Assembly: GCF_001679785.1 (NCBI RefSeq)
Contig: NZ_CP016286.1
Coordinates: 806,001-870,000, forward strand
Length of the DNA stretch: 64,000 nt
Direction: 5' to 3'
From: Rhizobium leguminosarum
GTDB lineage: Bacteria > Pseudomonadota > Alphaproteobacteria > Rhizobiales > Rhizobiaceae
In this document: positions 41,879 to 53,653 of the stretch, piece by piece
Layout of the letters: the number at the start of each line of letters is the position of its first letter
Position numbering within the stretch: the stretch's first letter is position 1
Notes under the pieces: generated by a model
The model's input: the letters and a program-made list of their open reading frames with translations, nothing else
Databases searched by the model: none
What the model was told of the DNA's origin: nothing
Position numbers and translations under genes: made by a program

Positions 41879-41920
41879 AGCACTTGCCGCCGCGCGGGCT
41901 TTGATCTACGACGTTTCTGT

Positions 41921-42068
41921 TCTCAGGGCGGGGTGAAACTCCCCACCGGCGGTAAGGGTTTCGGCTCGAGCCCGCGAGCGCCTTTCCCCGTGTCCAAGCG
42001 GGGGAGGGGTCAGCAGATCCGGTGCGATTCCGGAGCCGACGGTTAAAGTCCGGATGGAAGAGAATGAG
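41921..42068 (+). promoter_or_regulatory. FMN riboswitch (RFN element)
   Basis: All conserved RFN blocks are visible in order: agggcggggtgaaactcccc, ccaccggcggt, agcccgcgagcgcc, ggtcagcagatccggtg and ccgacggttaaagtccggatg. FMN binding should lower expression of the following transporter gene. About 90 bp between the aptamer and the ATG should hold the expression platform; whether it acts on transcription or translation is not decided. Confidence 0.96.
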
Positions 42069-42162
42069 CGTCGGTCGTGCGAGGGTGGGGATCCGCCATG
42101 TCGTTCGTGTCCGTGCCTCATGCGTCCTGATTTATGTTGGTCCCTGGTCACGGATGAAAGAC

Positions 42163-51372: not shown

Positions 51373-51975
51373 ATGAGTGAAGCCCTGACTGAGCTTGCGT
51401 CCTACCTTGGCGAAGCGCGCGGCAACCTGATCGCCGCATCGCAGATCAAGTATGGCGAACTGACGCTGACGACGACGGGTGAAAACCTGGTCGCGCTTCT
51501 GACCTTCCTGCGCGACGATGCCAAATGCGGTTTCGTCAACCTGATCGATATTTGCGGAGTCGACTGGCCGCAGCGCGAGCTGCGTTTCGATGTCGTCTAC
51601 CACTTGCTGTCGCCGAAGAAGAACCTGCGCATCCGCATCAAGGTCGCGACCGACGAGGATACGCCGGTTCCGTCGGCCTGCCCCGTCTATCCCGGCGCCG
51701 ACTGGTTCGAGCGCGAGACCTGGGACATGTACGGCGTGCTCTTCACCGGCCATCCGGACCTGCGCCGCATCCTGACCGACTACGGCTTCGAAGGCCACCC
51801 TCTGCGCAAGGACTTCCCGACCACCGGTTTCGTCGAGGTTCGCTACGACGACGCGGCAAAGCGCGTCGTCTACGAGCCGGTCGAGCTGAAGCAGGAATTC
51901 CGCAACTTCGACTTTATGTCGCCTTGGGAAGGCACGGAGTATGTGCTGCCTGGGGATGAAAAGGCGAAGCCATAA
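51373..51975 (+). CDS. nuoC: NADH-quinone oxidoreductase subunit C
   Basis: The 200-residue subunit has the 30-kDa-type pattern [47 protein letters not shown]. It is separate from nuoD, as in other alphaproteobacteria. Its stop is followed at once by the left inverted repeat of the inserted four-helix-bundle cassette. Confidence 0.98.
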
Positions 51976-51976
51976 C

Positions 51977-52008
51977 GGCGAATAGTGAGTAGCGAATAGC
52001 GAATAGTT
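51977..52008. repeat. Left inverted repeat of the nuoC-nuoD cassette
   Basis: Begins ggcgaatagtgag and ends agcgaatagcgaatagtt. It starts two bases after the nuoC stop codon. Confidence 0.9.
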
Positions 52009-52026
52009 GGAAGGGGCGGGCAGACG

Positions 52027-52383
52027 ATAAACTCCTACAAGGATCTTAAGGTCTGGCAGATGGCGATCGATCTCGCGGTGGATTGCTATCAACTGACCAG
52101 AAAATTTCCCAGGGAGGAGGTTTACGGTCTGACGGCTCAGATACGCAGGGCGGCGACTTCAATCGCAGCCAATATTGCTGAAGGACACGGACGTGAAGTC
52201 ACGGGAAGTTTCATTCAGTTTCTGCGTATCTCTCAAGGTTCGTTGAAGGAATTGGAAACGGATATGCTCATTTCTCATCGCATCGGCCTGATCGACGAGA
52301 GTGAGTTCAGGCAGATGACCGGAAAGTGCGACGAGATCGGACGAATGATTCGAGCGCTAATACGGAGTCTCCAGGAGAAATGA
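52027..52383 (+). CDS. Four-helix bundle protein (23S rRNA intervening-sequence protein family)
   Basis: The protein reads [27 protein letters not shown]..., [46 protein letters not shown]. The S-I-x-x-N-I-A-E-G-x-G-R motif is the hallmark of the IVP/S23 four-helix-bundle family, also related to the Avd protein of diversity-generating retroelements. The expected initiator Met, before [10 protein letters not shown], is an ATA at 52027 with AAGGGG upstream. An ATG at 52060 would drop the first 11 residues, including the conserved KVWQ. So either ATA is used or the gene is damaged. The protein's molecular role is unknown. Confidence 0.85.
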
Positions 52384-52396
52384 TGAGACCGAACGA

Positions 52397-52428
52397 AACT
52401 ATTCGCTATTCGCCATTCGCTATTCGCC
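52397..52428. repeat. Right inverted repeat of the nuoC-nuoD cassette
   Basis: Begins aactattcgctattcgcc and ends cattcgctattcgcc, the near-perfect reverse complement of 51977-52008. It ends 34 bp before nuoD. Confidence 0.9.
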
Positions 52429-52462
52429 TGATTGGCAACGCGTTTGGCATGGAGCACGCAGC

Positions 52463-53653
52463 ATGACCGAACATAACGTCCGCAACTTCAACATCAACTT
52501 CGGACCGCAGCATCCGGCGGCGCACGGCGTTCTTCGTCTTGTCCTGGAGCTTGACGGCGAAATTGTGGAGCGTGTCGATCCGCATATCGGCCTTTTGCAT
52601 CGCGGCACCGAGAAGCTGATCGAGACCAAGACGTATCTTCAGGCCGTGCCCTATTTCGATCGCCTCGACTACGTCGCGCCGATGAACCAGGAGCATGCCT
52701 ATGCGATGGCCGTCGAAAAGCTGCTCGGCATCGAGATCCCGATTCGTGGCCAGCTGATCCGCGTTCTCTATTCGGAAATCGGCCGCATCCTTTCGCACCT
52801 CCTGAACGTCACGACGCAGGCCATGGACGTCGGCGCGCTGACGCCGCCGCTCTGGGGCTTCGAAGAGCGTGAAAAGCTGATGGTGTTCTACGAGCGCGCC
52901 AGCGGCTCACGCATGCATGCCGCTTATATCCGTCCGGGCGGCGTCCACCAGGATCTGCCCGAACAGCTCGTGCAGGATATCGGCGCCTGGTGCGACCCGT
53001 TCCTGAAGGCGCTCGACGACATCGACAACCTGTTGACCGGCAACCGCATCTTCAAGCAGCGCAACGTCGATATCGGCGTCGTCTCGCTGGAGGAATGCTG
53101 GGCTTGGGGCTTTTCCGGCGTCATGGTGCGTGGTTCGGGTGCGGCCTGGGATCTGCGTCGCGCCCAGCCCTATGAATGTTATTCCGATCTCGAATTCGAC
53201 ATCCCGATCGGCAAGAATGGCGACAACTACGACCGTTATCTGATCCGTATGATCGAGATGCGCGAATCGGTCCGCATCATGAAGCAATGCGTCAACCGCC
53301 TGCTCTCGGATGCCAGGACCGGTCCTTTCTCGTCGATCGACGGCAAGGTCGTGCCGCCGAAGCGCGGCGAGATGAAGCGCTCGATGGAAGCGCTGATCCA
53401 CCACTTCAAGCTCTATACCGAAGGCTACCATGTGCCGGCCGGCGAGGTTTACGCCGCCGTCGAGGCGCCGAAGGGCGAATTCGGCGTCTATCTCGTCTCC
53501 GACGGCACCAATAAGCCCTATCGCTGCAAGATCCGCGCCCCCGGTTATGCCCATCTGCAGGCGATGGACTTCATGTGCCGCGGCCATCAGCTTGCCGACG
53601 TCGCGGCCGTCCTCGGCTCGCTCGACATCGTCTTCGGCGAGGTGGATCGCTGA
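52463..53653 (+). CDS. nuoD: NADH-quinone oxidoreductase subunit D
   Basis: The 396-residue 49-kDa-type subunit forms the quinone site with NuoB. Signatures are [41 protein letters not shown] and [27 protein letters not shown]. Complete length. GGAG lies upstream of the ATG. The stop overlaps the start of the next small gene. Confidence 0.98.

Follow-up and report, generated by a model that had tools for sequence, protein, structure and literature searches.

A heptamer-flanked S23 gene between nuoC and nuoD of Rhizobium leguminosarum, a possible member of a REPIN-like class of elements

S23 genes, rRNA intervening sequences (IVSs) and heptamer arrays are each already known. In the window analysed here (a stretch of 64,000 nt from Rhizobium leguminosarum, contig NZ_CP016286.1, positions 806,001 to 870,000), a gene of the S23, or intervening-sequence-protein (IVP), family was found between nuoC and nuoD, enclosed by inverted heptamer arrays. 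What kind of element places such a gene in the nuo operon, and what do its arms do there?

The cassette and its predicted fold

An earlier note on this DNA had placed an S23/IVP gene between the two nuo genes, and profile searches agree with it. The gene product (window 52030-52380) scored 134.6 bits against PF05635 (cut-off 33.8) and 129.8 bits against TIGR02436 (cut-off 24), and NF008911 was also matched. The solved chains found for the product were 2gsc (the nearest, E 1.6e-20) and 2rld. Among the best 80 of 154 relatives, the closest named ones were Rhizobium strains, with protein identities of up to 97%. PF05635 had no second match in the window's own genome, and nuoC, the S23 gene and nuoD all lie on the + strand. 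The features of the locus are as follows.

51373..51975, + strand: nuoC, the upstream neighbour (profile matches); its stop codon TAA ends 2 bases before the left array
51978..52008, + strand: left (5') heptamer array, GCGAATA GTGAGTA GCGAATA GCGAATA GTT (sequence, arm comparison)
52009..52016, + strand: possible Shine-Dalgarno stretch GGAAGGGG, 10 nt before ATA (suggested by the sequence)
52027..52383, + strand: S23/IVP four-helix-bundle gene of 118 codons, with a putative AUA start at 52027-52029 and TGA at 52381-52383 (PF05635, TIGR02436, NF008911, frame, omega)
52397..52427, + strand: right (3') heptamer array, an inverted copy of the left one with CTATTCG-type units (arm comparison)
51978..52427, + strand: long stem predicted for the RNA, its loop containing the gene (fold of 51970-52436)
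52463..53653, + strand: nuoD, the downstream neighbour (profile matches)

The inverted GCGAATA-type repeats that had been described on both sides of the gene are indeed present. The left arm opens with four heptamers (GCGAATA-GTGAGTA-GCGAATA-GCGAATA), and the arms 51978-52008 and 52397-52427 were complementary at 28 of 31 positions in one register, against 5 to 9 when shifted by 1 to 3 bases. The suggestion that the repeats could form a long stem around the gene was borne out by the predicted RNA fold of 51970-52436, in which the arms were paired (MFE -189.7 kcal/mol, z -8.06, with none of 100 shuffles as low). A single arm taken alone did not fold and was not used as evidence.

No rRNA family was matched anywhere in the window, and profile searches of the S23, NuoC and NuoD proteins found no transposase family of a DNA transposon or insertion sequence. 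PADLOC gave no match, so the defence-system reading was dropped. An FMN riboswitch aptamer was observed at window positions 41915-42069 (114.4 bits).

Heptamer arms with and without an S23 gene

Relatives were collected by a scan of species genomes, which gave 154; the 80 best of these were used. A PF05635 search of 398 Pseudomonadota genomes gave matches in 62, with 58 above the cut-off. Twenty-nine loci from this search, 40 further fetched stretches and the relatives' loci were deduplicated to 149 loci, nearly all from Pseudomonadota, with partial matches and short-flank loci excluded. The complementarity score between upstream and downstream flanks had a median of 22.2 at these S23 loci, compared to 8.5 in 294 control segments taken from the same loci (95% point 11.2, maximum 14). 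The score lay above the control 95% point in 133 of the 149 loci and above the control maximum in 126; 16 loci stayed below the 95% point. In the 122 loci with clear arms (a score of 15 or more), letter identity at lag 7 was 0.68 in the left arm and 0.73 in the right, compared to 0.20-0.28 at those tested lags that 7 does not divide; the best period was 7 in 117. Inverted heptamer arrays were also read in the flanks of nearly all relatives' loci among the matches listed.

The heptamers varied between loci and agreed within a locus (own-partner permutation z 12.8, 79 loci). In a non-redundant set of 38 loci, with S23 proteins less than 60% identical, the left arm again fitted its own right arm best (permutation z 17.3), the own partner ranking first in 19 of the 38. 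The clear-arm loci of this set had 16 different commonest heptamers, and the GCGAATA of the window is one of many. Scores above the control maximum were found at 21 of the 38 loci, that is, at 17 of 21 in the near part of the family and at 4 of 17 in the divergent part, where the gene ends, set by a profile, may also be off.

The two arms differ in composition. Across the 122 loci the left array was purine-rich (G 0.38, A 0.34), and stops in all three frames were found in the left arm at 85 loci, against 11.8% in shuffled sequences, and in the right arm at 2. In the window, TAG stands at every unit boundary of the left array, which therefore carries stops in all three frames; with a repeat length of 7, which 3 does not divide, three successive units with one stop each are enough to close every frame. 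We infer that the left array halts ribosomes leaving the upstream gene before they reach the stem, an idea that the enrichment figures describe and do not test, because related loci are not independent.

The arrangement extends beyond Pseudomonadota chromosomes. The best 80 relatives include three from Planctomycetota and one from Acidobacteriota; by eye, arms were present at three of these loci (L055, L075, L082) and on the right only at the fourth (L085). Of 44 plasmid records, 12 loci were read, ten of them cyanobacterial. Seven had inverted heptamer arms (short at L340), one had weak arms of period 8, two had arrays in direct order (L341, L342) and two had no arms. In three cyanobacterial plasmids (L339, L341, L345) the S23 gene stood between CRISPR genes, twice cas6/cas4 and once Cas10(Cmr2)/Cmr3. 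Earlier work exists on small mobile repeats in cyanobacteria. Two S23 loci of a single genome, G276 (L201 and L202), had flanks that were identical as far as read. At L158, an rfbB-like frame (249-1451) between two S23 genes contained two in-frame heptamer-type stretches, at 654-760 and about 1190-1310 (for example GAGACGG at 671 and CATCTCA at 703); to our knowledge, normal RfbB has no such stretches. A pattern search of viral contigs gave one stretch, which was not confirmed, and phage records gave no match; carriage of the cassette by phages or viruses was rejected on these searches.

Heptamer hairpins also occur without the gene. In another genus (g26), 50 spacers were read at a second S23 site, 49 of them anchored, whose flanking genes we take to be ATP-grasp-like and alpha-E. 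Twenty-six spacers were of cassette length (465-506 nt), 15 had a heptamer hairpin with a different loop and no gene (one genome, read twice, accounts for two of them), and three were short spacers of 24 nt. Five had only the right array together with what were, by eye, the last codons of S23, and are deletion remnants. Proportions among these spacers are meaningless, because the 50 consist of 30 best and 20 chosen split matches. In the window's genus, gene-free heptamer arrays, often as inverted pairs round a short loop, were recognised by eye at L212, L213, L217, L266, L268 and L269, and stretches of L266 and L213 folded as hairpins (z -3.9 and -6.6). Gene-free copies are dispersed in at least one genome: the hairpin loop of L267 occurs three times in genome G002 (100, 98 and 82% identity) and in none of 60 other genomes, and the flanks, read for the first two copies, differ.

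The search for repeats elsewhere in the window's own genome, proposed in the earlier note, found two identical solo arrays (up to 2 mismatches) and no gene-free inverted pair; other heptamer types were sought there by the TAG pattern alone. With one S23 copy and only these two identical arrays, recent transposition in this genome was rejected. The solo array that was tested lies in the 23S-5S spacer, which in G009 holds a full inverted pair and in G016 a solo array. In four genomes of the genus, heptamer arrays or a hairpin lie next to 23S in the rRNA operons (L263, L264, L270, L282).

A pattern of four TAG heptads gave 4760 matches in 119 g26 genomes and its reversed control 108; where matches overlapped within an array, each was counted. 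The median was 37 matches in the 99 genomes with S23 and 12 in the 20 without (p 4e-5, relatedness uncontrolled), and the association was weaker after 6 matches per S23 copy had been subtracted (p 0.027); S23 copies numbered 1 to 5 matches per g26 genome. In the window's genus, more than 2 further matches were found in 8 of 16 genomes with S23 and 3 of 21 without (Fisher p 0.030, rank test p 0.18), a borderline difference with relatedness likewise uncontrolled. Genomes rich in arrays and lacking S23 were G453, G461 and G555, as well as G006 and G021.

Turnover at nuoC/nuoD and the S23 reading frame

A comparison of nuoC-nuoD spacing in relatives had been proposed as a check on the cassette. 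Rather than being present in all relatives, with its repeats nowhere else, the cassette was found in 16 of 37 genomes of the window's genus and was absent from 21. Each of the 16 had S23 once and, by coordinates, at nuoC/nuoD (in G023 in two pieces). Five spacer alleles could be distinguished. Allele A, that of the window, has GCGAATA arms (6 genomes), B has GTGATTAG-type arms (3 genomes) and C has GGCAATA-type arms (7 genomes), while the two cassette-free alleles measure 64-67 nt (12 genomes) and 71-79 nt (9 genomes). By eye, cassette-free spacers (G001, G008, G011, G029 and others) have short inverted repeats of their own. In other families, 9 of 14 nuoC-nuoD spacers were 0 to 25 nt long; G053, G056 and G037 had spacers of 425, 440 and 1396 nt with other sequence, in genomes without a PF05635 match.

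On the NuoC/NuoD tree (36 inner branches, 19 well supported and 8 unresolved), presence of the cassette changed at least 11 times and the allele 15 times. On the S23 tree, which is based on few columns, types A, B and C lay in different parts: A grouped with nuo-site copies of Neorhizobium and others, C grouped with Shinella, and B stood near Mesorhizobium alphaE-site and Devosia copies with weak support. The site label, set by flanking motifs, needed 8 changes over 140 tips, against 60.8 when shuffled. From these few label changes and the spread of A, B and C over the tree, it follows that S23 lineages mostly keep one site and change it now and then, and that nuoC/nuoD appears to have been occupied on more than one occasion. 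Fifty-six of the best 80 named loci lay at nuoC and/or nuoD, a share that is biased upward, since these 80 were the top matches among 154 relatives of the window gene itself.

The earlier note had proposed an IVS-like mobile unit. The anatomy outside rRNA, the turnover of the site and the arrays elsewhere with and without the gene speak for it; no clean insertion was seen. No target duplication was seen by eye in the 37 nuoC-nuoD spacers of the genus. Clean insertion into an empty spacer was rejected since, on comparison by eye, spacers with and without the cassette could not be matched to each other, at the alphaE site as at nuo. An isolated insertion event likewise gave way to a recurrent site at which whole spacer alleles differ.

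The S23 frame of the window opens after the TAG at 51997-51999 and contains no ATG, GTG or TTG ahead of the conserved N-terminus; its only near-start codons are ATA, at 52003 and 52027. An ATG start at 52060 was rejected, as it would remove the conserved N-terminal KDLKVWQ. The same holds more widely: 51 of the 149 loci had no in-frame ATG, GTG or TTG between the last stop and the conserved protein start or first codons, and in 49 of these 51 ATC, ATA or ATT directly preceded the conserved start (ATA in the window). An AUH start (AUA in the window) would be the simplest reading of these sequences. We must also note that Ile occupies the position before the conserved start in 100 of the 149 loci, also where an ordinary start lies upstream, so that the Ile codon may instead be conserved because the protein requires it, translation then starting in some other way. 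In the type C genomes an ATG was present and out of frame in 6 of 7, the seventh (G009) having one in frame. Programmed frameshifting in place of the AUA start was dropped because the small out-of-frame ORFs that end close to the start in A and C, judged by eye, differ in relative frame and thus give no common rule across types.

The S23 protein is under purifying selection, with omega about 0.09 (0.07-0.10 in five groups). The Nei-Gojobori medians were 0.086 for A (9 sequences), 0.104 for C (6), 0.083 for B (3), 0.093 for the alphaE-site group (8) and 0.073 for the hibadh group (5). Broken S23 copies were found at L018, L068 and L077 and in G023.

Possible explanations and known systems

We tentatively favour, with a confidence that falls a little short of even, a pair of S23 gene and dispersed hairpins analogous to REPINs and RAYTs, with S23 in the place of the transposase. 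The cassette would then belong to a wide class of compact S23 elements (about 450 bp) in intercistronic and rRNA sites, in which tandem heptamers form the two arms of a stem and the gene occupies its loop, and the rRNA IVSs would probably be the rRNA-resident part of the class. At nuoC/nuoD, spacers with a cassette, from three S23 lineages, and spacers without one would replace each other among close relatives. The repeated stops of the left array would end upstream translation in all frames, as their enrichment suggests, and leave the stem and the downstream ribosome site undisturbed. S23 protein would presumably be made at a low level from the AUA start and may act on heptamer hairpins as single strands, either DNA or RNA. 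This action would let a hairpin, with or without the gene, spread by a putative route and be repaired to symmetry. What was observed is the anatomy, its recurrence across the family, the match of the arms within loci, the turnover of the site, the gene-free copies and the purifying selection on the protein; how S23 would act on hairpins and how these would spread is conjecture. We know of no catalytic domain in S23; because the protein is a four-helix bundle without known cutting activity, another nuclease would be needed. Against the REPIN-like explanation we count the missing insertion footprint, the few arrays in the window's own genome, the association of arrays with S23 that weakens on correction, the array-rich genomes lacking S23, the 16 of 149 loci below the 95% point, the plasmid loci with direct-order, period-8 or no arms, the weak divergent part of the family and, unlike in RAYTs, the frequent presence of more than one S23 gene per genome.

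A broader proposition, which we consider doubtful, is that S23/IVP proteins are the trans-acting factors of a widespread REPIN-like system. They would recognise hairpins of seven-base pitch by shape and not by sequence, and in this way would spread heptamer hairpins and keep them uniform, whether or not these contain the S23 gene, in the spacers between cistrons and in rRNA operons of Pseudomonadota, Cyanobacteriota, Planctomycetota and Acidobacteriota. The outcomes would include rRNA IVSs and also the heptamer arrays of Xanthomonas, Nostoc and rhizobia.

It is unlikely that the cassette is instead an IVS-type element working in the mRNA, where RNase III would cut the stem, free the S23 mRNA and split the nuo message before nuoD, with selection for this cut keeping the arms complementary. 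The predicted pairing of the arms (z -8.06) fits such an element, as do the neighbours at 56 nuo loci, which lie on the strand of S23 in a count that took same-strand matches only, and the heptamer arrays or hairpin beside 23S in four genomes of the genus. Moreover, in the part of the Coxiella paper available to us (PMC4990558), the IVS is cut by RNase III in a 28-bp stem and has tandem heptamers before the S23 gene. RNA-level selection on pairing, however, predicts more G-U than A-C mismatches, and no excess of G-U was found either in the 149 loci (168 G-U and 153 A-C, p = 0.43) or in the non-redundant set (11 and 21, p = 0.11); the direct order of the arrays at two plasmid loci also disagrees with a cut stem. 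Nothing here thus shows RNA-level selection, and purely RNA-level selection on the arms gained no support from mismatch types. The arms may owe their symmetry to processes acting on DNA, and the transcript may still be cut.

Nor do we think it probable that the repeats grew by slippage around a passenger gene, with template switching perfecting the inverted pairs and cassettes moving only by homologous exchange via nuoC/nuoD. The lack of wobble bias is consistent with that course of events, and so are the unit numbers, which vary strongly within one site (for example L145 and L148, L330), the alleles that differ as whole spacers and the S23 lineages that mostly keep their site (8 label changes against 60.8 shuffled, 140 tips). 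In 28 genomes, the within-allele likeness of the last 60 nt of nuoC was reached by 31 of 1000 permutations and that of the first 60 nt of nuoD by 43 (uncorrected), whereas the distal parts showed no such likeness (299 and 105 of 1000). As the junction flanks are only slightly more alike, homologous exchange is possible and would have left little trace. Nevertheless, slippage and exchange do not agree with one hairpin loop at three places in G002, two of them with different flanks, with S23 lineages that switch site on the tree, or with arrays that enclose S23 genes far more often than control segments.

An ordinary regulatory gene of the nuo operon, with incidental repeats, would suit the strong purifying selection on the protein but is highly improbable, as S23 is missing from 21 of 37 congeners and the same family has the same kind of arms at many unrelated sites.

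The recurrence of the arrangement suggests a type of dispersed genetic element that has received little description, and bears on the role of S23 proteins and on the origin of rRNA intervening sequences. If S23 genes generally sit in heptamer hairpins, rRNA is just one setting, and S23 function could be tested in easy hosts at an mRNA site. If the REPIN-like explanation is true, it would account for the heptamer arrays described from several groups of bacteria, and would add to the systems that may move small hairpins a protein for which no nuclease activity is known. In the titles and abstract beginnings of the open-licence literature we found no paper tying S23 genes outside rRNA to heptamer arrays, which is not proof of absence; heptamers beside an S23 ORF are in print in the Coxiella IVS paper, as its available part shows (PMC4990558).

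Four known systems can be compared with the cassette. The Avd/bAvd proteins of diversity-generating retroelements form a related family (phrog_3206, E 1.9e-11), but the S23 product stayed below the cut-offs of PF22296 (26.4 bits, cut-off 40) and NF033474 (26.6 bits, cut-off 80), and its neighbours are nuoC and nuoD. Xanthomonas and Nostoc have intergenic tandem heptamers (GGGAATC and GGGGA(C/T)T), sometimes inverted and variable in length as in the S23 arrays (PMC4692102); the available text of that paper makes no link to S23, and the terms S23, four helix and intervening are absent from it.

The 23S rRNA IVS of Coxiella burnetii, according to the accessible part of its description (PMC4990558), is 428-444 nt long; terminal repeats form its stem, and the loop contains an S23-family ORF. 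Tandem heptamers GACAGAT, variable in number among strains, precede the ORF, whose translation signals are poor and which is described as undergoing reductive evolution. The window cassette resembles it in size, in its heptamers and in poor translation signals, and shares the S23 ORF in the loop of a predicted terminal inverted-repeat stem. It differs in lying between nuoC and nuoD, outside 23S rRNA, in having heptamer arrays as both arms, and in an S23 protein under purifying selection.

As far as the parts of the RAYT papers available to us describe them (PMC2817692, PMC3116915), RAYTs are single-copy genes flanked by inverted REPs and not self-moving, and REP doublets form hairpins. S23 is a four-helix bundle and not an IS200/IS605-type tyrosine transposase; the profile search of the window gene gave only PF05635 and, below cut-off, bAvd, and no transposase of that type. 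The S23 repeat is a degenerate heptamer array free to change in sequence, unlike the fixed palindrome of a REPIN in those texts, and g26 genomes often have more than one S23 copy. Two identical solo arrays are the only further occurrences of the repeat in the window's own genome; arrays and pairs are commoner in relatives. The likeness to REPINs and RAYTs, within what those sources cover, lies in the gene flanked by inverted repeats, in gene-free inverted pairs that are dispersed in extragenic DNA and capable of forming hairpins, and in gene lineages that mostly stay in place.
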